A stretch of DNA of 64,000 nt, taken from NCBI GenBank assembly GCA_964019425.1, contig OZ025838.1, positions 510,501-574,500 of the forward strand, in the 5' to 3' direction. Below, one piece after another: positions 13,026 through 60,448 of the stretch. The notes beneath the pieces were generated by a model. It did not search any database. It saw only the letters and a program-made list of their open reading frames with translations, and was not told the DNA's origin. The translations under genes were made by a program, and so were the position numbers. This stretch comes from Flectonema sp. DT1601 (lineage: Eukaryota; Euglenozoa; Diplonemea; Diplonemida; Diplonemidae). How positions within the stretch are numbered: the first letter of the stretch is position 1; every line of letters starts with the position of its first letter.

Positions 13026-13275
13026 TCTAGTACACTTGTTGGGACCCGAAAGATGGTGAACTATGCCTGGATAGGACGAAGCCGGGGGAAACTCTGGTGG
13101 AAGTCCGTTGCGGTGTTGACGTGCAAATCGCTCGTCAAAGCTGGGTATAGGGGCGAAAGACCCATCGAACCATCTAGTAGCTGGTTCACTCCGAAGTTTC
13201 CCTCAGGATAGCTGGAACCATAAAAGGAGTTACGCCAGGTAAAGCGAATGGTTGGAGGCATTGGGGATATAGAGG
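13026..13275 (+). rRNA. Fragment of large-subunit (28S-type) rRNA, domain II region
   Basis: Near-universal LSU blocks occur in the right order: gttgggacccgaaagatgg, tgaactatgcctggatagg, aactctggtggaagtccgt, tgacgtgcaaatcg, tataggggcgaaagac, tcgaaccatctagtagctgg, actccgaagtttccctcagg, and aggtaaagcgaatggttgg. Only about 250 nt of the several-kb LSU is present, with none of the flanking domains. It is therefore a dispersed fragment, lying inside the inverted-repeat unit. It may be a dead copy. A working piece of a fragmented rRNA, as known in some protists, is possible but less likely in this setting. Confidence 0.9.
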
Positions 13276-35200: not shown

Positions 35201-36400
35201 CCCCCCCCGACTTTTTTTGCATCCGTACTTTTGTTTTGAAAGACATCTAATTCAAGGTCCGGCGCAGTTATGACCTTAAACTGACTGTCATCTTACCTGA
35301 TCCTTTTGGTTTTCATTTCTTGCTGAGTGATATGGCTATGTGCTGCCCAAATCTTTTGTGGTGCATTTCTAAAGCTTTTCGGTAAGCCCACAGTACACTT
35401 ATAATGCTTTGGACAACTGGGGGTGAACGATCCTCGGTACTGTTCCGGGGGTTTCTATTTTCTTTCGTGGAGTGTGGGCATATGGCACATGTGGTCGTAT
35501 TATAAAGAAAGATGTATATGAAAGAAAGAAGATTTTTTATTTTTTTCACCTTCCCCCCACTCCCAGATCGTTTCTCTTTTATTTTCTTTTGTTGTTTACA
35601 ACCTGTTAGCCTCTGGGCAAGGTGGAGGCTGGAAGTCGATCACTTCCAGCCAATACTATGAAACTACAATCTTCGCGATTGGGTCCTTACTGATGCGGGC
35701 TACCCAGACCCCTCGTAGTCATCAGTTTGTATTTTGCTAACTAAACTAAACTAATTGCTGCCCTCTCGTGTTTTTTTGAAAAGACTAAACTGAAAGTGAC
35801 TCACAGAAATTACTGAACGAGATTGAAAGGCTCAATTAAATTTCTTTCATCTGAAGACTGAATGATTTTATATTTTTTGTTTACAATAAACCAGAACAAA
35901 TAGTTCACTCCAATCTCCTTTTTTTGTTGTTACTCTAGTGCATGTCAGCGAGCTTACGCTTTATTAGGCAATCATGTGTTTCTATCTTAGCAGGTCCATT
36001 TTTATTTTTAGTTTTCACTGTGTTATGCAAAGCATTGTCCTTGCTCCTGTGAAACTGGAAATTTTCAAATTTTTATTTTTCCCAATTTCTCATAGTGTAA
36101 AAAAACAATTCAAAAAAAAAACTAATTGGTGAACAAAAAAGAGAAAGAAATGCTTGGGCAGTGACATCTCGCTGCGTCCCCGCATATTCTTTTGGCATGT
36201 TATCCTAAGACAGATTGTTTGTGTTGAGGAGAATGCTTCTGAACAGATAAAATAAATATGTCGGAAGTTGCATGCTCTGTCTTTCACAACCTCTTTTGTT
36301 TCACATTCCTTTCTCCGTTTTTTTTTTTTTTTTTTTTTTTTTTTTCCCCCTTGACTTTAAAAAAAAATTGCTGCGGTCCATGAAAATTTAAAAAAAAATC
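31037..36400 (+). other. Long AT-rich spacer
   Basis: No credible protein gene over 5.4 kb. It includes ATT microsatellites (31045 and 33061), T runs of about 20-29 nt (32210, 32321, 36318) and A runs (33392). Dispersed repeat C is at 35070-35179. A hairpin-bearing stretch at 35605-35755 shares its last ~32 bp with 11330-11362 (atcagttygtattttgcta). Confidence 0.45.
35070..35179. repeat. Dispersed repeat family C, copy 1
   Basis: cgtctcttatcgtctgtgag, agtctcatggttgctggtag, cgatctaact, gagcttttcctgacttttgg and cttcgtaaataa recur in the same order at 57799-57915 with few changes. No coding potential; ends in an A/T-rich tail, so it may be a SINE-like or retro-inserted RNA. Confidence 0.7.
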
Positions 36401-39400
36401 TACCTGGACGATGGGCTGGTGGCGGGCACCCTGGAACAGGTGGACAAGGCCCTCCAAATCCTGCAGAAGGAGACGGCGGAGCTGGGGCTGACGCTGAGGC
36501 CGGACAAGTGCCAGACACACGTGCTCGACTCAGCCCAGAACACCCTGCCCATGGGGTGGGGGTTAGAGGGGATGAGACCCCCACTGTACAACGGGGACTT
36601 CCTGGGGGCACCGTTCGGGACGGATGAACACTGCCAGGAGTTCGTCGACAGGAAGGTGGCGCAGCTGGAGAAGAAAGCGGAGCTGCTAGCAGACCTGCAG
36701 GACCGGCAGGTGGCCATGGTGCTCCTAAGGCAATGCATGGGCTTCTGCAAGGTGACCCACCTGATGCGATGCTGCACGCATGGGAAAATGGACACCTCGA
36801 TGCGGAAGGTGGACGAGCTGATGAGGTCCACGGCGAGCCGAGTGTTGGGCCTGACACTGGAGGGGCCAAAGTGGATGCAGGCACAACTGCCGACCCGGAT
36901 GGGGGGATTGGGGCTGCGGTCATGTGCAGAGCACAGGGGAGCAGCACTACTGGGATCCCTGGAGTTAGTCCAAGGGGTGAGCAAGTCACTATGGGAGGGG
37001 TTCAAGGGTGTGCTGATGCCAGCGCTGAAGAAGGGGTTGAACCTCGCCCTCCCGGAGGAGCTAAGGATAGAAGAAGACGGGCCCGGGCCGAACCCCCAGA
37101 GACTGTCCTCGGCGAAACTGGACCAGGTCAAGAGAGACTGCCTGCTGGCGGGGGCGGATGACCCGCGCGATAAAGGGAGGCTGCTCTCTCTGCGCATGGA
37201 TAAGGCGAGCGCATGGCTGCAACAAGCAGATGAAGAGTGCGCGATGGACCCAGAGACGTTCAGGATCGCATGTGGGATGCGATTGGGCGCAGCGCTGTTC
37301 GCAGAAGGGGCAGTATGCAGGATATGCTCAGGCCCGCAGGATAGGCAGGGATACCATGCCTCGATCTGCATCAAGAACGGGCACGTGCACCAGCGACACG
37401 AGAGGGTGAAGGAGGAGTTCATCTCCATCTTTAAGCAGGCGGGATTGCCGCTGCTGAGAGAACCCAGCCACCTACTGGGACCCAACAAGCAGAGACCGGG
37501 GGACTGGTACTGCCAAGAGGGGCTGAGGGAGGGGAGAGGCCGAGCCTTCGACATCACGGTGGTAAACCCGGGGAAAATTAAAGTTTATAAAACCCCGGGG
37601 CAAGCCGCGAGAGAAGCAGAGTCCCTGAAAGGGAACAAGTACGCGGAGCAGTGCACGAAACACGGGATTAATTTCTCGACAATCGCGCTGGAAGCGTACG
37701 GAGGGATGGGACGGGAAGCGGTGGGGACCCTGAAGAAGTTGGTGCAGATCTGCGCAACGAACTCGACGGTGCCACACCGGGAGATCGCGGGGGAGATGGC
37801 GAGGAGGATCTCGACATCGGTGGTAGTGGCGACGGCGGAAGCACTGAGAGCGAGGGAGGCGTCGGTGGCGATGGACTCGGTGAACCCATTGCCAAGGACG
37901 AAACCGCCGCCCGAGATGACGGAGAAGCCGACACCACAAGAGAGAGAACCAAGACCGAGAGCGGAAACGGAAGAGATCCAGCAGCTGGAAGCAATGCGGC
38001 AGTCGGCAGGACCGAACCCGACGATGAGTGGTTTGCCGAACATCGGGAACTCCTGCTACCTCAACGCGTCCGTACAGTGCCTGCTGAAGGGCACGGCACT
38101 GACACAAGTGCTGACGGGGAAGGAGGAAGTGGGGATGTCGGGCCTCCTGAGTGGAGTGGTCAAAGGGAGTGGGGAGTGCCTGGAGAAGCTGTCCAAGATG
38201 TTCGACCCGCTACAAGACAGGCGGCAGGGGGAGGTAGTAGGAACCCTGACGTCCATAGTAGACGCCCTGTTGGAGGAGAAGAAAGAGGAGTGCGAACCGT
38301 TGTTCTCGGCAGTACAGCTGAAACAGCTGGTCTGCACGGGATGTGCGGACGCCTCCGGATCGACGGATGAGTTGACGCTGATCCCACTGTGTGGCCGTAC
38401 ACCACAAGTGAGGCTTCAGCCGACGAAGGAGAGAGTCGAGCGGTCCTGCGAGAAGCTGTGCGGCAGCAAGGAGGCCACGTTGGAAGAGAGTTTCGCCTCG
38501 CTCCCAAGCTCCTTGATCTTCCAGAGAGACAAGCAGGACACACAAGGGTCCTTGGGATGGGAAGAGCGCTTCCAGGTGCAGGTCGGGGAGAGGGTGATGA
38601 CGTACCAGCAAACGGGAGCGATCGCACACCTCGGGAGTGACAACGCGGGGCACTACGTGTCATACACGTGGGACGGAGTAGGCTGGCAGAAGCAAGACGA
38701 CAAGGCAATAAGCCAAGTGTCGACAGAGGAGATCCACGGTACGAAACCAGTAGTAGTGGTCTACTCGAGGGTAGAGGGATCGACCCAAGAGGATGTCGGG
38801 GTGCCGGTGAGATGGATTCCGGTGGCGAACAAGGACCGGATGGAGGTACGCGAGGCACCGCCGTCGGAGGAGGACACCGCGGGGTACACGTCCAGGGAAG
38901 AGGCGGAGTGTGTCCTCCGGACGCGAGTAGTAGGGGGGCAGACGCAGCGCAAGCTGCTCCTACTGGTATCGAGCGTCTGGAACGCGGAGATGGAGAAGCT
39001 GGGGGCGGCGGCATGCCTGATACACATGGGAACGCTCGACAGGAGGTTCACGTGGTCGGGCTGCCTACCGACATGGGACGAAGCGACTGCGGAGTACGTG
39101 GCAGCGCTGCTAGGGCTCAACGCGATCAGGGAGAGATCGCAACTGCTGGGGGGTGAGACACAGATCGAGGTGGTCACACCGCAGCAGGGGTGGGGAGCCG
39201 AGCAGCAGGAGGCGCTGAAGTTGGTAGCGCTCCCGTCGGTGATAGAACACCAGGTGACGGAAAGCTCACGAGGGGTGGAGAACCTGGCCCTCTGGGAAGC
39301 GGAATCGGCGGCATGGGACGAGCCGGTGGAACTCTCGGAGGACGGGCTCGACTACTTGGTGATCGAGCTGGAGATGAATCTGGGGCTGTCCCAATTGAGG

Positions 39401-41989
39401 GGAATGGCGGCGGAACCGGATGAATCCCAGTCGCTCCCAGGAGGGTCGACGGCATCAGGCGAAGACAGACCACGAGCCGAAGCGCCAGCCCAGGTGGAAG
39501 CGCAGACGACGGAAGCACAAGGAGCGGAAGCAGTAGGGCTGAGAGACGAGCCAGCACAGGAAGTGGGACAACCCGAGGAAAAAGAGCCCCCATCCCCCGA
39601 CCCCCCGTCGAAGGAGGAGAAGCTGTATGCGGTGGCGGTGGGATGGAAACCGGGAGTGTATGCATCGTGGGAGGAGGCGAAGGCACAGACGGAAGGGTGC
39701 CCGAATGCGACACACCAGAGTTTCTCCTCCAGGAAGGAGGCGGACAGGTTCGTAGAGAGGTGGCAGCCGGAGACCAGGGAACCGACCCGGGCCACGGAGG
39801 GAGTCAGCCCACGTAAGTGGTACGCAGTGGCGAGGGGCAGGGCGGTAGGCCTGTTCCAATGCTGGAACGAGGCGAACTCGATGGTGTCAGGCTACGCGGC
39901 GGCGAGACACAAGAGTTTCGCAAGCAAGGGGGAGGCGGAGGGATACCTCCGAACCCACCTGCTGGGGGAGGTGGTTGGCGAAGTAGGGACGAGGTACACC
40001 TTGGTGTACGCATGCGAGGAAGACCCGGTAACGGGCCGTCTGGGGGCGGCGGCGAGCTGGTTGGACACACACCGTTTCGAGGTGTTGGGCACATGGTCAG
40101 CTGGCCTGCCAGCGGGAGACACACACTGGGGGCGATACTTCGCAGCCCTGGTGGGGCTGGTAGCGGCCAAGGCGTGTGGAGGCCTCGTCCCAGCGGAGGC
40201 ATCCCTGCTGCTGCGAGGAAGCACGACACACTGGTCGACGGACCAGAGAGAGGTGCTGGAGGAGGCGGAGTTGATGGGGAGGCGTACGACGCTGGTGGAG
40301 ATGCCAGAGAGGATGAGAACACACGCGACGGAGGAGGCTGAAAAAGCGGCGAAGGAGGGCTCGACCTCAGTGACGGAAGCCGTGATGAAGGTTTTCACAG
40401 AGGGGGCAAAGAACTGCCTGGGACACGGGACACAGACGGGTCCCTTCACGGTGCGGTGGGAGGGAAGACAACTGCGTCTGGAACCCCAGTACACAGAAGA
40501 GGGGACGGGATCGTCAGGCGGCCGAGAGTCGGTGGAAGGAGAAGACGCGAGGGTAGAGGGCCGAGACGAGCAGAGCCCGGTCCCAACCCCGAAGGGGGCC
40601 GTACAGAGGGTAGAGGCGGGAGTCCTGGAGTTGAGCTCGGAAGGGTCGGAGGGAGATGACGATAGATCATCCTCCCCAGCGACAGGGCAGGACGAAGGGA
40701 ACGGTTCCATGTCGGGAGGCTCCTTGGGGAGTCCAGGGACGTCGGACATGGAAGCAGAAGAACAGACGGACGAAAGGGACCAGTCAGTAGACCCGTCGGC
40801 AGCAGAGACCTCAGGCGAAAACCATCACCTGGCCGAGGACCTGCAAGCCGAGAAGGGGGACGAGCTGGACGAGACGTCCCATCACTCAGGAGAGCCACCG
40901 TCGTCAGACGGCATGGACGGAGTGGAGGGGTTGGAGGACCTGGAAGACTCACAGTCGGAGACGGAAGTCGACGGAGAAAATGTGACGGAAGGGTCAGTAG
41001 TCCAGTACGTCGAGGAGACGTCAGAGGACGTGGTCCAGGTGGCAGAGTCGGACACAGAGGAGGAGGGATCGTCAGACTCCCAAATGACCAGGACGGTCGA
41101 TGAACAGGAATGGGAAGAGGGAGCGGCGCCTGAGGGGAACGCAGGTCAGATGGCCTGGATGCTGGGACTACACCCAGAAGGGGGGAACGCGGAAACACGA
41201 CGGGAGGGCCAATCGGAGCCCCTTTCAAAGCTGGTGAACTCAGGCGAATCAAAACCAATGGCCGAGAGATCCAGTTTGGGGGCGAAGATGGGACCACGCG
41301 CAGTGGGTAGTGACGGGAGCGGGGAAGACGCAGAGAGATCGCCGGGCACGGTGTCGACACCGAGCACGAGAGGGAGGACGAAGTACAGAAAGGGAATGGA
41401 GGAGGAGAGGGAGGAGTGTGTGTCGCCGAAGACAAATACGGGAAGGGGACGCACGAGAGGCCGGAAGGCAAAGACGGGGGCAAAGGGGGCCGGAAAGGAG
41501 GACCCAAGTCCGCAGGTGTTGCAGGCGGAAATAGGAGAGTCCACCCCGAGCTCAGGTGAACGGCAGGCGAGGAGGAGGTACAGGAAGGGAGAAGAGAGGG
41601 AGAGGATAGAGGTTCTCTCCCCAGACCCGAGCAGGAGAGCGAAGAGGAAGAGACGCAAGCAGAAGGAACCGGAGCCAGTGGAGGGCACCACGAGGGAACA
41701 GGCGCCGCGGAGTTACAACAGGAAACCCACACTGCGTCGGGTAGGTAAGGGAGACTCACCCGACACAATGGGGTACGCACACGGGCCCCCGGGCTCCCTG
41801 ACCTCGTTCACGGACGCGGGCGTACGCCCGGAGCCGGCGGAGCGAGACGGACAAGGTGTGGCAGGAGTAGAGTTGGTCACAAGGTCGTCGTCACAGAGTG
41901 AGAAAAGCACCCAAGGAGAGATGAGGGAGAGAGAAGGGGATCCAACACGAAGGGTCCTGGACTTCTCGTCGAAAGGGGGAAGGTGCTAG
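36401..41989 (+). CDS. LINE polyprotein: RT C-terminus, R2-like endonuclease, USP-type protease, RNase-H-like folds, two hybrid-binding domains
   Basis: Open without a native start; residues are numbered from the first ATG at 36419. RT motif C (YLDDGLVAG) and the following LGLTLRPDKC helix are at the very start. At 300-317 is CRICSGPQDRQGYHASIC (CCHC knuckle), then RHERVKEEF, RPGD (Asp362) and FDITVVNP, in the order of the R2 restriction-like endonuclease. At 538-785 is a USP domain: Cys box GLPNIGNSCYLNASVQCL (Cys546), VCTGC, LPSSLIFQ and His box GHYVSYTWDG (His745) with WQKQDDKAI. Two related RNase-H-like segments (about 840-960 and 1190-1300) share LGAAA...GLNAIR / LGAAA...GLVAAK. Two RNase H1-type hybrid-binding (viroplasmin) domains are at 1068-1115 and 1133-1181. 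A long acidic tail ends with two basic repeats containing YRKG. USP domains remove ubiquitin; its role here is unknown. Confidence 0.85.
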   Translation, partial: YLDDGLVAGTLEQVDKALQILQKETAELGLTLRPDKCQTHVLDSAQNTLPMGWGLEGMRPPLYNGDFLGAPFGTDEHCQEFVDRKVAQLEKKAELLADLQDRQVAMVLLRQCMGFCKVTHLMRCCTHGKMDTSMRKVDELMRSTASRVLGLTLEGPKWMQAQLPTRMGGLGLRSCAEHRGAALLGSLELVQGVSKSLWEGFKGVLMPALKKGLNLALPEELRIEEDGPGPNPQRLSSAKLDQVKRDCLLAGADDPRDKGRLLSLRMDKASAWLQQADEECAMDPETFRIACGMRLGAALFAEGAVCRICSGPQDRQGYHASICIKNGHVHQRHERVKEEFISIFKQAGLPLLREPSHLLGPNKQRPGDWYCQEGLREGRGRAFDITVVNPGKIKVYKTPGQAAREAESLKGNKYAEQCTKHGINFSTIALEAYGGMGREAVGTLKKLVQICATNSTVPHREIAGEMARRISTSVVVATAEALRAREASVAMDSVNPLPRTKPPPEMTEKPTPQEREPRPRAETEEIQQLEAMRQSAGPNPTMSGLPNIGNSCYLNASVQCLLKGTALTQVLTGKEEVGMSGLLSGVVKGSGECLEKLSKMFDPLQDRRQGEVVGTLTSIVDALLEEKKEECEPLFSAVQLKQLVCTGCADASGSTDELTLIPLCGRTPQVRLQPTKERVERSCEKLCGSKEATLEESFASLPSSLIFQRDKQDTQGSLGWEERFQVQVGERVMTYQQTGAIAHLGSDNAGHYVSYTWDGVGWQKQDDKAISQVSTEEIHGTKPVVVVYSRVEGSTQEDVGVPVRWIPVANKDRMEVREAPPSEEDTAGYTSREEAECVLRTRVVGGQTQRKLLLLVSSVWNAEMEKLGAAACLIHMGTLDRRFTWSGCLPTWDEATAEYVAALLGLNAIRERSQLLGGETQIEVVTPQQGWGAEQQEALKLVALPSVIEHQVTESSRGVENLALWEAESAAWDEPVELSEDGLDYLVIELEMNLGLSQLRGMAAEPDESQSLPGGSTASGEDRPRAEAPAQVEAQTTEAQGAEAVGLRDEPAQEVGQPEEKEPPSPDPPSKEEKLYAVAVGWKPGVYASWEEAKAQTEGCPNATHQSFSSRKEADRFVERWQPETREPTRATEGVSPRKWYAVARGRAVGLFQCWNEANSMVSGYAAARHKSFASKGEAEGYLRTHLLGEVVGEVGTRYTLVYACEEDPVTGRLGAAASWLDTHRFEVLGTWSAGLPAGDTHWGRYFAALVGLVAAKACGGLVPAEASLLLRGSTTHWSTDQREVLEEAELMGRRTTLVEMPERMRTHATEEAEKAAKEGSTSVTEAVMKVFTEGAKNCLGHGTQTGPFTVRWEGRQLRLEPQYTEEGTGSSGGRESVEGEDARVEGRDEQSPVPTPKGAVQRVEAGVLELSSEGSEGDDDRSSSPATGQDEGNGSMSGGSLGSPGTSDMEAEEQTDERDQSVDPSAAETSGENHHLAEDLQAEKGDELDETSHHSGEPPSSDGMDGVEGLEDLEDSQSETEVDGENVTEGSVVQYVEETSEDVVQVAESDTEEEGSSDSQMTRTVDEQEWEEGAAPEGNAGQMAWMLGLHPEGGNAETRREGQSEPLSKLVNSGESKPMAERSSLGAKMGPRAVGSDGSGEDAERSPGTVSTPSTRGRTKYRKGMEEEREECVSPKTNTGRGRTRGRKAKTGAKGAGKEDPSPQVLQAEIGESTPSSGERQARRRYRKGEERERIEVLSPDPSRRAKRKRRKQKEPEPVEGTTREQAPRSYNRKPTLRRVGKGDSPDTMGYAHGPPGSLTSFTDAGVRPEPAERDGQGVAGVELVTRSSSQSEKSTQGEMREREGDPTRRVLDFSSKGGRC

Positions 41990-43462
41990 GGACTCCACGA
42001 AGGAGGTCTCAAGAGTCGAGGAAAAAACAGAGCCAAGACCCCAGAGCCAACCCAAAACACATGGTAGAGGACGAGGGAGAACAAGAGCGGGAGCGAGGTT
42101 AGAAACGTGACCAAAGCCCCCGCGAAGCAGGAGACACAACCTGCAACCAGACCCCCCCCCAAAAAAAAAAACCCCGGTCAACGAGGCAAACTCGGACCAA
42201 AACATGCTTTTCACCCCCCCCAGGAAACACCGACCAGTGGAGCCAAAGGCCACACACATATTATAAAAATCAAAGGCCGCCCCCCAACCCAAGAAAAGGA
42301 TGAAAAACTTTCAAGCGAAAAAACTTGACGTCCGTACGCCCCAGAGATCAAAGGACGGACGACTCACACCCCCTTCTTTCGCCCCATTTTATTTACTGGT
42401 ACAGCGACAAATGTAAAGCTGGGTAGACGACGAATTATTTTTTATGCACAGAGACAAGGGATCCATGAGAACAAAGGATCAAGAGTAGAAGTGCACATTC
42501 CCCATCCCAAACCCAGAAACATGAGAACTCATTAAATTGAAGGGTCATGTCTTTTCAAGTCGAAAAATGCTTAAATGCTAAAGAAGACTGTCGTCCCCAG
42601 CTCGCGGGTTTTCCCTGTCACTGTATGTCGAGACAACGATCAGAGTCAGTAGAAAGATTGTACTAATTAACAGTATAATGAAAAAGGACAAAGAGAGTAG
42701 TTTCCATTTTATCTTCCCGAAAAAAACGCTAGGGACTCCACGAAGGAGGTCTCAAGAGTCGAGGAAAAGACAGAGCCAAGACCCCAGAGCCAACCCAAAA
42801 CACATGGTAGAGGACGAGGGAGAACAAGAGCGGGAGCGAGGTTAGAAACGTGACCAAAGCCCCCGCGAAGCAGGAGACACAACCTGCAACCAGACCCCCC
42901 CAAAAGAAAAAAAACCCCGGTCAACGAGGCAAACTCGGACCAAAACATGCTTTTCACCCCCCCCAGGAAACACCGACCAGTGGAGCCAAAGGCCGCACAC
43001 ATATTATAAAAATCAAAGGCCGCCCCCCAACCCAAGAAAAGGATGAAAAACTTTCAAGCGAAAAAACTTGACGTCCGTACGCCCCAGAGATCAAAGGACG
43101 GACGACTCACACCCCCATCTTTCGCCCCATTTTATTTACTGGTACAGCGACAAATGTAAAGCTGGGTAGACGACGAATTATCTTTTGTGCACAGAGACAA
43201 GGGATCCATGAGAACAAAGGATCAAGAGAAGAAGGGCACATTCCCCATCCCAAACCCAGAAACATGAGAACTCATTAAATTGAAGGGTCATGTCTTTTCA
43301 AGTCGAAAAATGCTTAAATGCTGAAGAAGACTGTCGTCCCCAGCTCGCGGGTTTTCCCTGTCGCTGTATGTCGAGACAACGATCAGAGTCAGTAGAAAGA
43401 TTGTACAAATTTGTTGTATAATGAGAAAGGACAAAGAAAGTAGTTTCCATTTTATCTTCCCG
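41985..43462 (+). repeat. Tandem duplication of the LINE 3'UTR (2 x ~743 bp)
   Basis: Copy 1 starts at 41985 (gctagggactcc, overlapping the stop codon) and ends in a short A6. Copy 2 starts at 42728 with the same words and runs to the poly(A). They differ at only a handful of sites, such as homopolymer lengths, so they are recent or kept alike. Each has the same small frame of 73 codons (42107 and 42850), which I take as non-coding. Confidence 0.9.
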
Positions 43463-43500
<38 letters not shown>

Positions 43501-44603: not shown

Positions 44604-44690
44604 AGGGTGGGTGGTCTAGTGGTGCCGCGCCTAACAGCGCAATACAGCTTCACGTGGTCGGCCTGGGTTCAAACCCGCCCCGCCCCTCAT
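44604..44690 (+). mobile_element. tRNA-like SINE head, plus strand, abutting LINE 2
   Basis: A-box TGGTCTAGTGG at about 44612-44622 and B-box GGGTTCAAACCC at about 44668-44679. Between them is the block ccgcgcctaacagcgcaa (44625-44642), found again at 47633-47650 and, with one change, at 47793-47810. The LINE frame is open through this segment, which seems to be chance. Confidence 0.6.
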
Positions 44691-44705
44691 TCGGTGGAAT
44701 TTGGA

Positions 44706-47432
44706 ATGCCTGAACTGGAACGACAAATTTCAAAAACAAAGGAGAAGAAGGCACCTGGACCTGACCACATCTGGAACTCGATGTTAAAACAACTTCCAAA
44801 AGCTTTCCTCGAGCAACTACTAAGACTATTCAACCTCTCATGGCAACGATCAGCAGTACCCAGGTGCTGGAAAAGTGGAATGGTAATACCCATACTGAAA
44901 CCTGATAAAGACAAGAAACAAGTCTTATCGTACAGACCGATAGCACTAACCTCGACCGTCTCGAAACTCTTTGAAAGAATGGTCGTAGAACGGATGCACC
45001 ACCTGTTGAAAGACAGAATGAATCCGAGGCAAGCAGCCTACAAACGAGGACGGGATTCCATTGAAAATCTCTGTATAGTTACAGACAAACTCAAAAGTGC
45101 CAAGGCAATGGGAGAAGAAGCGATATTAATCACCTTCGACCTACAAAAAGCCTTCGATGCAGTTCAACCGGCAACTCTTCTAAATAAGATGTCCAAAATA
45201 GGACTACCAACGAAATATCTACGGTGGGTTCAAAACTACTTGACTAGTAGGAAGATTTCAACAAGGGTGAATGGAGTGAAGGGAGCATTCCGGAACATTC
45301 GAGTAGGAGTGCCACAAGGAAGCGTGCTGGGACCCCAGTTATTCTCTATCTTCATAAATGATTTGATAGACAAACTAGAGATGTACGAACCGACTGTCTT
45401 TGCAGATGATGTTGGAATAGTAATAACCGCAGGCACTGTCAGCTGTTTAGAAAACAAGGTTAACAACGCAGTCAAAATATTTGAAAGGTGGGCACTTGAC
45501 TCACACATCAAAATCAATAAGAACCCTGGCAAGACGGAATACATTCACGTGAGGCCAAGTGGAACTCATGACAAGTCCCCAGTAGTAGTATACTCTGAAG
45601 AACACACATTTAAATATGTGGTGGCCACGGCAGAACAAATGAGTAACCTTGTGAAGGATGATAACTCAACAACTGTAGTTTCAAAAGAAGAATTCGCCAT
45701 CACTCACCTGTATGTCGTTCCAAAACATAAGATCAAAGTCAAGCTACCGAACAAACCGGCGGTACTGAAAACAATGAAGATGAGCGCCAGCTTCTCACAA
45801 CTGAAGAAAGTCCACAACAAGGCAGAAATAGATAAGATGCTGGAAAGAGTGGGACCCGGATTACACGGATTTGCCTATGCGGTTGGACGAAAAGTTCACA
45901 AGACGAATACCGTGCGGTATCTAGGCGTACATTATGACGAGAAGTTAACCTTTAAGTCGCAAATTCAAAAGATGATGACAGCTGCTTCCAAGGGTCTAGG
46001 CTTGTTGGTTAGACTCACCAGGATAGGCTGCAGAAAGAGGACACTCATCAGTATACTGGTGACGGTGGTGTTAGCAAGGGTGCTTTATGGTGTTGAAAGC
46101 TTTGCTTGGATGCTACCAAAAGAGTGCTTCGAACAACTGGAATTACTGGTAAACAGGGCAGTGAGGCTGGTAACTGGATGTCTGCGGAGCACCAAACTAC
46201 AGAGACTTTACAAAGAAGCCGACACGCCAAGACTGAAGGAACACATCCAGTATAAGATGTGTAGAACTTATGAACGTTTCAAATTGAGTCCGTTCCTACC
46301 GACTCGCAAGCTGACGAGAACAGGGAGTTCAGAATTATTTCAAAAATCGAAATGGGGATGGAATGTCTGGATAGACTATGTCTCTGGTGTCCCTGGCCTT
46401 GACAACTACCGGAGCATTACCAACCTGGAAGTGAACCCAGAACACTACACTCTCCCTCCATGGAAAAGTACTAATGCGATGAAATTCACATATTCACGCA
46501 ACAAGGAAGAGGCTGAACAGCGAGAAACTGAATTACCAGCTCACGAGATGAAAGTCTACACTGACGGGTCGATAAGACACAAACCCAACACTTACATGAC
46601 AGACTCGGCTGCCGCTGTGGTCATGGTTAACGGAAGCAAGATGCGTCTACTTGGATATAAAATACCAGTAGCGGGTTCCTCTTATAGGACCGAGCAGATT
46701 GCAGTAAAAATGGCGTTGGAAAATTTAGTTCAGGTGGCGGAGGATGAACATGAATCTCTAACAACAACGACGCACCTGTTGACTGATTCGATGTCAGTCA
46801 TGCAGGCATTGGAACAAGGGCCATATAAACAAAGGTCCCCAATGAACAAAAAGATCTGGAAGTTGGCAATGAAATTGGAGAAGAAGGGAATCCAAGTCAA
46901 CATGCAGTATGTACCGGCACACAGAAACGTGCGGTACAACGAAGTAGCGGACCAACTGGCGAAATTCGCTGCAGGCCTGAAGGAAGATCCACCTCACGAA
47001 GATGTTATTATTAAACAACTGCCCACTCAACTTGACATGGGAACATTGATGACGTTTCACAAGCGGAGAAAACGGGAGAACTGGATCGGACCAGGAGAGG
47101 TAAGACACCCTCCGTACATCGAAGCTCTAACACGACCAGAGGAAGTACTGATGTCACGCTTTAGAGTGGGACATTGCAGATCTCTGATAATCAAAGGACT
47201 GAACGAGCTGTGCTTTTTCTGTAAACTTGGAAAGGCGACAGCACATCATGTATTATTTATATGCGAACATTGGTGTATAGAAACCTTGAGGGAAAAATAC
47301 ATCAGTCACATGATGAATGACAAGGGAGAGGAAGCATGCCAACTGGAGGACTGCTACTTACCTGCGAATCAACAGCAGATGACTGGTTTTGTCACAACCT
47401 TAGACAGACTGGCACAACTATTAGGACGGTAG
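44706..47432 (+). CDS. LINE 2 polyprotein fragment: reverse transcriptase, RNase H, CCHC knuckle
   Basis: Non-LTR reverse transcriptase of the I/Jockey/Ingi-like group. The fragment starts at the RT domain (KEKKAPGPDHIWNSMLK, then YRPIALTSTVSKLFERMV) with motif A ITFDLQKAFDAV, motif B GVPQGSVLGPQLF and motif C FADD (45399-45410). RNase H begins KVYTDGSI (Asp codon at 46563) with LLTDS and the late motif NEVADQLAKFA. A CCHC knuckle CFFCKLGKATAHHVLFIC starts at 47211. The apurinic endonuclease that normally precedes the RT is missing, so the copy is 5'-truncated; the frame also stays open upstream to 44607 through SINE sequence. About 110 residues separate RT motif C/D from the YLGVHYDEKL motif, longer than usual. 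RT and RNase H catalytic residues are present. Confidence 0.9.
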   Translation: MPELERQISKTKEKKAPGPDHIWNSMLKQLPKAFLEQLLRLFNLSWQRSAVPRCWKSGMVIPILKPDKDKKQVLSYRPIALTSTVSKLFERMVVERMHHLLKDRMNPRQAAYKRGRDSIENLCIVTDKLKSAKAMGEEAILITFDLQKAFDAVQPATLLNKMSKIGLPTKYLRWVQNYLTSRKISTRVNGVKGAFRNIRVGVPQGSVLGPQLFSIFINDLIDKLEMYEPTVFADDVGIVITAGTVSCLENKVNNAVKIFERWALDSHIKINKNPGKTEYIHVRPSGTHDKSPVVVYSEEHTFKYVVATAEQMSNLVKDDNSTTVVSKEEFAITHLYVVPKHKIKVKLPNKPAVLKTMKMSASFSQLKKVHNKAEIDKMLERVGPGLHGFAYAVGRKVHKTNTVRYLGVHYDEKLTFKSQIQKMMTAASKGLGLLVRLTRIGCRKRTLISILVTVVLARVLYGVESFAWMLPKECFEQLELLVNRAVRLVTGCLRSTKLQRLYKEADTPRLKEHIQYKMCRTYERFKLSPFLPTRKLTRTGSSELFQKSKWGWNVWIDYVSGVPGLDNYRSITNLEVNPEHYTLPPWKSTNAMKFTYSRNKEEAEQRETELPAHEMKVYTDGSIRHKPNTYMTDSAAAVVMVNGSKMRLLGYKIPVAGSSYRTEQIAVKMALENLVQVAEDEHESLTTTTHLLTDSMSVMQALEQGPYKQRSPMNKKIWKLAMKLEKKGIQVNMQYVPAHRNVRYNEVADQLAKFAAGLKEDPPHEDVIIKQLPTQLDMGTLMTFHKRRKRENWIGPGEVRHPPYIEALTRPEEVLMSRFRVGHCRSLIIKGLNELCFFCKLGKATAHHVLFICEHWCIETLREKYISHMMNDKGEEACQLEDCYLPANQQQMTGFVTTLDRLAQLLGR

Positions 47433-59152: not shown

Positions 59153-60448
59153 ATGCAGGTTTTTGTGAAGTGTTCGGATTTGGGGTTTGCCGCCGTGTCA
59201 GTCACGGCTGGTGCTGATTCCCTTGTGAGCGAAGTGTTGACGGCTGCGGCTGGGGAGTGGGATGTTGATGTTGAGGAATTTGAACTCTCGTTCGCTGGCG
59301 ACACCCTTTGCGAAAGTGAGCGGTTAGCAGATCATGGAGTGGGAGCAGAGAGCGAGTTGGAAATGTTGAAGAAGCGGTTTCGTTTATTTGGTAAAAGCTG
59401 GTTTGTTGATGATACAAAACGTGAGAAGATGCTTCGTTGGATCAAAAACCACGATGAAGAATACTTATACCTAGACATCCCTACATTCACAGAGGATAGT
59501 TGTATCAATATTTCTGGTGATTTACTGCTTCCAGCTGCCCAACGGATTTCTTTGTGTAATTCAAATTCCGACATTACAGCCATCTCACAAGTTACTAGTA
59601 TTGGAGATAATTTCTTGCGTTCCTGTTCACAAATCACTTCTCTTGACCTTTCAGGTCTCAGTAGTGTAACAACTATTGGAAATAATTTCTTGTTTTCCTG
59701 TTCACAAATCACTTCTCTTAATCTTTTAGGTCTCAGTAGTGTAACCACTATTGGAGGTGAATACTTGTCTCACTGTTTAGAAATAACTTCTCTTGACCTT
59801 TCAGGTTTCAGTAGTGTAACCACTATTGGAGATTATTTCTTGAATTCCTGTACTCAAATCACTTCTCTTAACCTTTCAAGTCTCAGTAGTATAACCGCTA
59901 TTGGAGATTATTTCTTGTTCGGATTACAAATCACTTCTCTTGACCTTTCAGATCTCAGTAGTGTAACCACTATTGGACATTATTTCTTGTCTTACTGTTC
60001 ACAAATCACTTCTCTTAACCTTTCAGGTTTCAGTAGTGTAACCACTATTGGAGATAATTTCTTGGATTCCTGTTCACAAATCACTTCTCTTGACCTTTCA
60101 CGTCTCAGTAGTGTAACCACTATTCGAAATTATTTCTTGTTCGGATTACAAATCACTTCTCTTAACCTTTCAGATCTCAGTAGTGTAACCACTATTGGAG
60201 ATTATTTCTTGTCTCACTGTTCACAAATCACTTCTCTTAACCTTTCAGGTCTCAGTAGTGTAACCACTATTGGAGATGATTTCTTGAATTCCTGTTCACA
60301 AATCACTTCTCTTGACCTTTCAAGTCTCAGTAGTGTTACCGCTATTGAAAATAATTTCTTGTCTCGCTGTTCACAAACCACTTCTCTTGACCTTTCAGGT
60401 CTTAGTGGTGTACCACTATTGGAAATAACTTCTGCAATGGGTCAGTAA
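59153..60448 (+). CDS. Ubiquitin-like domain fused to BspA-type leucine-rich repeats, 431 aa
   Basis: The start is the ATG at 59153 (MQVFVKCSDLGFAAVSV); the open frame before it has only a TTG. Residues 1-78 have a ubiquitin-like beta-grasp pattern (MQVFVK start, LVSEVL helix, FELSFAGDTL as in ubiquitin's RLIFAGKQL, LADHGV). A linker follows (YLYLDIPTFTED). From about residue 145 come ten full 23-25-residue repeats of the type QITSLDLSGLSSVTTIGDNF, plus partial repeats at each end. These are BspA-type LRRs, which form solenoids for protein binding. The repeats are near-identical at DNA level (59585-60420), showing recent expansion. In the last repeat one base is missing relative to the others (gtaccact for gtaaccact), so the frame leaves the repeat and ends LLEITSAMGQ. 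The protein may be shortened but still folded. Confidence 0.85.
   Translation: MQVFVKCSDLGFAAVSVTAGADSLVSEVLTAAAGEWDVDVEEFELSFAGDTLCESERLADHGVGAESELEMLKKRFRLFGKSWFVDDTKREKMLRWIKNHDEEYLYLDIPTFTEDSCINISGDLLLPAAQRISLCNSNSDITAISQVTSIGDNFLRSCSQITSLDLSGLSSVTTIGNNFLFSCSQITSLNLLGLSSVTTIGGEYLSHCLEITSLDLSGFSSVTTIGDYFLNSCTQITSLNLSSLSSITAIGDYFLFGLQITSLDLSDLSSVTTIGHYFLSYCSQITSLNLSGFSSVTTIGDNFLDSCSQITSLDLSRLSSVTTIRNYFLFGLQITSLNLSDLSSVTTIGDYFLSHCSQITSLNLSGLSSVTTIGDDFLNSCSQITSLDLSSLSSVTAIENNFLSRCSQTTSLDLSGLSGVPLLEITSAMGQ

Follow-up and report, generated by a model that had tools for sequence, protein, structure and literature searches.

A ubiquitin-specific protease domain behind the endonuclease, and an OTU domain before the reverse transcriptase, in LINE families of the diplonemid Flectonema sp. 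DT1601

What is a predicted deubiquitinase doing behind the endonuclease of a retrotransposon? The question is raised by a stretch of 64,000 nucleotides (nt) from the diplonemid Flectonema sp. DT1601 (assembly GCA_964019425.1, contig OZ025838.1, positions 510,501 to 574,500 of the forward strand; hereafter the window), in which a long interspersed nuclear element (LINE) carries in one open frame the end of a reverse transcriptase (RT), a restriction-like endonuclease (RLE) and a ubiquitin-specific protease (USP) domain. The cysteine proteases of LINEs, such as Ulp1 in NeSL, have hitherto been an unexplained curiosity. Here the USP is found in five LINE families of the same genome (A, to which the window copy belongs, and B to E) with its active-site residues intact, and fused relatives are found outside this genome. 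The window element is read as a 5'-truncated copy of a recently active RLE-type LINE, whose USP, probably of cellular origin, would act in cis as a deubiquitinase (DUB) protecting the retrotransposition complex; to this reading we give a probability of roughly 0.5. Copies were sought in an assembly of 89.5 Mb in 92 contigs. In window coordinates, the features of the element are the following:

36392..41989, + strand: whole open frame with its stop codon, 1865 amino acids (aa), the C-terminal third of low complexity.
36399..36721, + strand: C-terminal end of the RT from YLDD onward, end approximate (RVT_1 tail, residues 4-44, E=0.04).
37199..37891, + strand: RLE with CCHC, RH, RPGD and FDITV motifs, placed by sequence motifs, limits approximate.
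38030..38764, + strand: USP domain (UCH, peptidase C19), UCH residues 547-791, with oxyanion Asn, catalytic Cys, His and Asp, and one CxxC (zinc-finger region).
39620..39751, + strand: first RNase H1 N-terminal (Cauli_VI) domain, residues 1077-1120.
39800..39931, + strand: second RNase H1 N-terminal (Cauli_VI) domain, the second Cauli_VI stretch, approximate limits set by eye from alignments.
41990..43498, + strand: 3' untranslated region (UTR) in two tandem copies, the first to about 42726 and the second at about 42728-43462, with poly(A) at 43463-43498.

The frame is free of stops from 36392 to 41986, with the stop codon at 41987-41989. It opens on YLDDG and runs through the RLE motifs (CCHC, RH, RPGD, FDITV) to those of the USP (GLPNIGNSCYLNASVQCL, VCTGC, GHYVSYTWDG and WQKQDD), so that the single frame from the RT catalytic motif via the endonuclease into a USP, which an earlier sequence-only reading of this DNA had described, was recovered with every motif it named. 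The coordinates given there for the LINE polyprotein are right for a truncated copy. Alignment to a full-length copy (L010) begins at 36399, just before YLDD, and the codons of the frame upstream of this point are flank; it is because of the 5' truncation that RVT_1 gives only its C-terminal tail. Cauli_VI matches the frame in two stretches with a whole-protein E value of 1.2e-27 (Pfam). The element forms a GC-rich island, with a GC content of 0.55-0.62 versus 0.31-0.45 in the remaining 2-kb segments of the window. Behind the frame, positions 8964-9735 of L010 align to window positions 42728-43498 as well as to the first 3' UTR copy, which ends with only seven A, while the second ends with a run of 36; the second copy is perhaps a separate insertion, almost wholly 5'-truncated.

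The identity of the USP domain was approached through profiles. The Pfam UCH model matches the window frame with E=7.8e-12 and 45.8 bits against a cut-off of 23.9 bits, which bears out the assignment made from motifs, and UCH also stands above the curated cut-off in one copy each of families A, B, C, D and E. As a single sequence against the PDB, the window USP finds USP15 best (E=1e-6); a profile of the five families finds USP36 at E=3.3e-24 over positions 11-264 of 266, followed by USP15 in two pieces (2.6e-23). The USP domains of B-E are 20-28% identical to that of the window, and the positions invariant across the five families are the oxyanion Asn, the Cys, the His, one CxxC and an Asp five residues after a Trp; the position preceding this Asp holds Asp in A-D and Asn in E. 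At the 24 loci examined, Asn, Cys, His and the third residue are kept in 10/10 copies of A (the CxxC too), 4/4 of B, 3/3 of C, 4/4 of D (as Asp) and 3/3 of E (as Asn). Regarding the CxxC pairs of the fingers, the first is invariant in the five families, and the second is clear in B-E and altered in A (SCEKLC).

The domain recurs with the element. When window positions 38000-39000 were translated and compared with the genome, 90 matches were obtained, 22 of which span the whole query at 98-100% identity with no stop. Four further groups at 25-32% identity comprise, as read from the table, 6 rows for B, 11 for C, 15 for D and 4 for E, and the rest are fragments. In a second survey, a family A RT query gave 83 matches; the 38 covering at least 415 of the 523 residues were selected, and a USP was sought downstream on the same strand within 15 kb. 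One was found behind 37 of the 38, at the family-typical distance in 32. The spacing in family A is exactly 760 nt in 18 of 19 rows and 4639 nt in the remaining one; it is 3898 nt in 6/6 rows of D and 3799-3802 nt in 3/3 of E. Five of the nine B/C rows have the USP at 2617-4372 nt and the other four at 6.5-8.4 kb, and for one B/C row (C67:121287) the distant USP probably belongs to a neighbouring element. The single RT with no USP downstream, on the same strand and within 15 kb, is D/E-like (C4:1212336). With the 22 stop-free matches, the USP behind nearly all long RT matches and the four further families, the domain is not a one-off fusion, the outcome that would have refuted the sequence-only reading.

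The full-length family A copy adds what truncation has removed. L010 has one frame of 2885 aa with Pfam matches to OTU (E=1.9e-12), RVT_1 (7.5e-17), UCH (2.7e-11) and Cauli_VI (2.6e-27), and the order in the family is OTU - RT - RLE - USP - two RNase H1 N-terminal domains - low-complexity tail. By these profile matches, the family A polyprotein is predicted to encode two unrelated DUB folds, one on each side of RT-RLE; the OTU was invisible from the window alone because it is missing from the 5'-truncated copy. OTU profile matches above cut-off were found in A, B, C and D, and the OTU Cys and His are kept in 5/5 loci of A, 1/1 of B and 1/1 of C among those returning a match (three C loci were searched). 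The RTs of family A are 99-100% identical over 19 rows and 14 of these 19 have frames of 2850-2971 aa, which points to recent activity. At the start of the family A frame (L010:446-520), the region of the first Met is hydrophobic and signal-peptide-like (MLLCGYVLLWALLSGTRA), which is odd for a nuclear retrotransposon protein.

Concerning its class, the element has a LINE RT followed by CCHC and PD-(D/E)XK motifs and a poly(A) 3' end, seen in six family A copies, as expected of an RLE-type element without long terminal repeats (LTRs), although no search was aimed at LTRs. No Pfam model matched the RLE region of the window frame, and the RLE was recognised by motif: an alignment of four families shows no variation at C, C, H, C, R-H, P-D and D-x-T. 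The RT-RLE stretch also matches R2 retrotransposon proteins in the PDB (best E=2.3e-6). Ulp1, the hallmark of NeSL/Utopia, was not found by Pfam in the window frame or the family copies, which have OTU and UCH instead. The insertion of CRE/SLACS elements at one position in spliced-leader genes is likewise not seen: compared by eye, the sequences that follow the 3' ends of six copies of family A (the window copy and L009-L013) differ from each other; spliced-leader genes were not looked for.

Families B, C and E have frames of 3734, 3210 and 4514 aa, respectively, and B, C, D and E share the order OTU, RVT_1, UCH, Cauli_VI, the OTU of E being recognised by motif and alignment only. In D and E an extra domain with a Cys box and His, 43% identical between the two families, lies between RLE and USP. 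Compared profile to profile, it matches the main USP over its full length (probability 95.5%, E=1.4e-8); its PDB matches are weak, with USPs in 6/7 rows (best E=0.0025), and in Pfam it gives a sub-threshold UCH_1 match in D (0.00068) and no match in E. We read it as a divergent USP, of doubtful activity since its third catalytic position is Ser. By eye, nested insertions were noted as well: one family A copy adjoins a family D fragment holding this second USP-like domain (last ~120 bases of L010), and a second one lies directly against the beginning of a frame of family E (L012). The N-terminal repeats of family D (L031) gave matches to Glyco_hydro_11 (1.3e-9) and FLYWCH_u (1.9e-8, below cut-off) over short stretches, probably to be taken as repeat matches. 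For the sequence that follows the Cauli_VI domains, an RNase H-like identity was considered and set aside, as only four columns of the alignment are invariant.

Repeats that end in AGG occur in the linker from RLE to USP in families B and C and in P0019, a Diplonema protein described below. The units number 15, 12, 13 and 9 in four B copies (L014, L015, L016 and L027, the last from a short frame) and 5 in each of three C copies (L017-L019). A loose pattern for the motif, P..P..AGG, noticed post hoc, has 18 matches in B, 8 in C and 6 in P0019, a few of which lie elsewhere than in the linker; shuffled sequences gave means of 0.7, 0.4 and 0.9 and maxima of 4, 3 and 4, and at least one match occurs in 38 of 131 retrieved proteins. 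Between B (L029, L014) and C (L019, L030) the N-terminal coding region is near-identical (dS 0.06) and most of the rest has a dS of ~0.3-1.0, a similarity indicating that 5' ends have been exchanged between the families.

Selection was evaluated between one B copy and one C copy as omega, the ratio of nonsynonymous to synonymous substitution rates. The values were 0.31 (0.20-0.46) for the USP, 0.14 (0.08-0.24) for the OTU, 0.05 for the RT, 0.06 for the RLE, 0.44 (0.36-0.53) for the linker and 0.33 (0.24-0.45) for the tail. Within family A, the corresponding diversity ratio piN/piS was 0.29 for the USP (14 entries, representing 10 loci and 7 haplotypes), 0.03 for the RT (5 entries) and 0.27 for the tail, and it rose to 0.56 where the RNase H1-type domains lie. 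Judged by these ratios, the USP is under purifying selection, weaker than on the RT and no stronger than on the tail, so that the active-site motifs, and not the entire domain, are strictly kept.

As to where the USP came from, 134 matches to the UCH family were counted in the genome, those in LINE copies among them. A tree was built with the five LINE USPs and 20 host USPs selected because their matches were long; in it the five separate as a single group from the host sequences (support 83/94, not starred). The nearest host USP is L058, whose best match is USP36 (E=7e-41), with ubiquitin carboxyl-terminal hydrolase 8 entries close (7e-39); branches in this tree are long and deeper placement is unsure, and the Diplonema and metagenome USPs join neither LINE nor host USPs with confidence. 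A cellular USP, closest to the USP36 type, is the probable ancestor of the LINE USP; it would have been acquired before A-E diverged and retained since. Cellular DUBs of the USP36 type are the best profile match of the LINE USPs, which differ from them in being shorter, strongly diverged and fused to RT-RLE. A single capture, which the USP tree supports for A-E, is left open by the RT evidence: the best 39-row RT tree does not unite the USP bearers, yet a topology with them as one clade is not rejected (p-AU 0.256), and one clade for the five host families alone is likewise not rejected (0.401).

Relatives were sought in a protein search space of 5.8 billion, of which the 8000 candidates sharing most words were scored per search. 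The family A region from RT to USP retrieved 17 proteins, and a four-family profile retrieved 166, the best 120 of which were examined; the alignment behind this profile sets the USP of A against the extra USP-like domain of D/E, so its RT-RLE part is sound and the search says little on USPs. A search restricted to the USP region yielded P0001 as its sole match, at 98% identity. Across all 131 proteins retrieved, the USP profile finds three: P0001; P0019, from Diplonema papillatum, with the USP behind the RLE (44.6 bits; Pfam UCH 2.7e-7); and P0119, from a JGI metagenome, with the USP before the RT (25.4 bits; Pfam UCH 3.1e-7). The OTU profile finds eight, namely P0003, P0016, P0020 and P0123 with the OTU before the RT, P0022 and P0047 with a weak match behind RLE or RT, and P0004 (clear) and P0029 (weak) with matches in both places. 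Other host domains seen in RLE LINE relatives are F-box with RT (P0083), MLLE (P0119, and listed for P0084) and PHD (P0084, listed).

In a 118-row RT-RLE tree, which omits P0016 and P0047 as their RT-RLE match is too short, families A-E, P0019 and five OTU bearers fall in one clade of 14 with an SH-aLRT (Shimodaira-Hasegawa-like approximate likelihood ratio test) support of 99. Its three further members, P0021, P0038 and P0056 (a partial Diplonema protein), gave no DUB match with the USP and OTU profiles. The corresponding set with P0047, 14 rows, is held at 92/97 in the 39-row tree; the DUB-clade label set without P0047 needs two changes there and is split off by a branch in just 12% of bootstrap trees. 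Reference CRE sequences are represented in the RT trees by the database-named P0019 only. The relatives in which a USP or OTU was found behind the RLE thus group in one RT clade, and P0119 and P0123 fall outside it. Given the position of P0119 and its USP before the RT, USPs have probably been joined to RLE LINEs at least twice, at different protein positions.

No paper on a USP in a LINE was found in the open-access literature searched, which was covered mostly by title and opening of the abstract, with subscription papers largely outside. To this extent the sequence-only claim that no such LINE had been described is not contradicted, but P0019 already carries UCH and RT domains in NCBI, so that the combination itself was in the databases. 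P0019, named there 'SLACS 132 kDa protein', shares with the Flectonema elements an RT, RLE motifs and then UCH, belongs to the same RT clade and shows 36% identity to family A across 51% of the query. It differs in starting close to the RT, so that the N-terminal OTU region is not covered, in a USP that is only distantly similar, and in that neither Pfam nor our own profile found an RNase H1 N-terminal domain, unlike in A-E. The name SLACS derives from the CRE/SLACS LINEs of Euglenozoa. SLACS reverse transcriptases are mentioned in the Diplonema genome paper, in the main text of which a word search does not find 'ubiquitin' (PMC10161547). In the same RT clade, the OTU-bearing RLE LINEs P0003, P0004, P0020 and P0029 carry the OTU before the RT, like A-E; behind RT-RLE, the DUB fold of P0004, P0029, P0022 and P0047 is OTU-like, weakly so in the last three, versus the USP of A-E.

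Among described systems, NeSL and Utopia-1_TSP carry an Ulp1-like cysteine protease (PMC4640811). As far as the sections consulted go, the likeness lies in an RLE-type LINE with one polyprotein, in which a protease for ubiquitin-like proteins is fused to RT-RLE; the difference is that theirs is Ulp1-like and N-terminal, whereas the Flectonema families have a USP C-terminal of the RLE and an OTU N-terminal. Captured ubiquitin-system proteases are also described in DNA transposons: OTU or Ulp1 in Ginger1, Mutator and Helitron elements, in the account of Ginger1 never both in one protein, and a Peptidase C19 domain in a Trichomonas vaginalis transposase (PMC2836005). The Ginger1 and T. vaginalis elements are likewise mobile and one of their proteases is of the C19 (USP) type, but they are not LINEs. 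A review of giant transposons notes that Burro LTR elements have domains related to ubiquitination and that Helentrons have an OTU (PMC6431247). The domain combination of the Flectonema LINEs is real, conserved and, as far as searched, unreported; it is akin to that of RLE LINEs with a protease for ubiquitin-like proteins, and the pairing of OTU with USP and the distribution over the clade make it more striking.

Elsewhere in the window, a fragment of 28S large-subunit rRNA lies at 13043-13184 on the + strand (172 bits), and nothing else in the window exceeds an Rfam cut-off; scattered pieces of 28S rRNA are also reported in Diplonema (PMC10161547, as far as consulted). A second LINE fragment, of another type, with 942 aa and RVT_1 plus RNase H, occupies 44604-47432 on the + strand. 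A tandem array of 75-bp units, ~84% alike, at 59599-60433 may encode BspA-type leucine-rich repeats. The stretch 31184-31350 matches the MIR2118 model weakly on both strands, below cut-off, and is perhaps an inverted repeat.

What, then, would the USP do? In the preferred reading, it rides on the RT/RLE protein and its RNA, where it would act in cis as a deubiquitinase, trimming ubiquitin from the complex and perhaps from nearby host proteins too; the complex would thereby outlast proteasomal turnover or ubiquitin-based restriction until target-primed reverse transcription. We infer both the activity and the protective role from sequence. The OTU in A-E and the second USP-like domain in D/E point to ubiquitin rather than protein maturation, and the recurrence of two kinds of DUB fold around RT-RLE argues for a ubiquitin role more than for a generic maturation protease. 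The domain behind the RLE is an OTU in some clade relatives and a USP in others, as if a DUB as such, and not a given protease, were wanted there. Several results weigh against the protective role. The structure prediction to which the sequence-only reading had looked lent no support, the single-sequence AlphaFold model of the window USP having a mean pLDDT (predicted local distance difference test) of 37. For the USP, omega is near the value for the low-complexity tail and far above that for the RT, with an interval overlapping the linker's, so whole-domain constraint is modest. Moreover, no DUB was found behind the RLE in clade members P0003, P0020 (which ends at the RLE), P0021 and P0038, and a post-RLE DUB is therefore not proven universal. 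Extended to the whole clade, the idea becomes tentative: a deep clade of RLE LINEs may have made ubiquitin removal core to its life cycle, the N-terminal OTU and a post-RLE DUB slot, filled by OTU or USP and doubled in D and E, being kept because hosts police by ubiquitination.

Other roles were weighed against the same evidence. OTU and USP could be maturation proteases cutting a giant polyprotein into RT/RLE and other parts. This would suit the great length of the single frames (from 2885 aa in A up to 4514 aa among A, B, C and E) and the two or three domains of cysteine protease type on either side of RT-RLE, and the tymovirus OTU offers a precedent for a dual role in processing and deubiquitination (PMC5695851, as far as consulted). 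Inspection by eye of the GG sites between domains revealed no sequence resembling the ubiquitin tail that all five families share at their domain borders, and no convincing cleavage site of that kind in the polyproteins. Known USPs are specific for ubiquitin, and RLE LINE proteins such as R2 work uncut; both points count against maturation, which we regard as unlikely. A place between the RLE and the RNase H1-type domains, which in RNase H1 bind RNA-DNA hybrids, would suit a USP acting on chromatin at the insertion site (ubiquitinated H2A/H2B or repair factors) and easing nicking or repair during target-primed reverse transcription. Such a role is also favoured by the DNA-repair function proposed for OTU and Ulp1 of DNA transposons in the Ginger paper (PMC2836005, as far as consulted), but Pfam found no chromatin reader domain in the window frame and the proposal seems distinctly unlikely. 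That the USP has turned into a non-catalytic ubiquitin-binding module would fit its fast evolution outside the motifs, to which the low identity of the B-E domains to the window USP attests, and the Ser of the extra D/E domain; with the active-site residues of the main USP kept in 5/5 families, it is quite improbable. Finally, a one-off fusion or assembly artefact without a role, for which the high GC of the element against its surroundings is the sole point, has practically no standing: the 22 intact matches and the four further families refute it, and the Diplonema and metagenome fusions and the near-identical protein P0001 count against it.

For LINE biology, the finding that one LINE protein has two unrelated DUB folds, that these are kept in all five families and that other eukaryotes have USP-bearing relatives narrows the explanation of these proteases to ubiquitin itself, in a form that can be tested. 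If the protective reading is true, it would suggest that retrotransposons in protists are subject to ubiquitin-based restriction.

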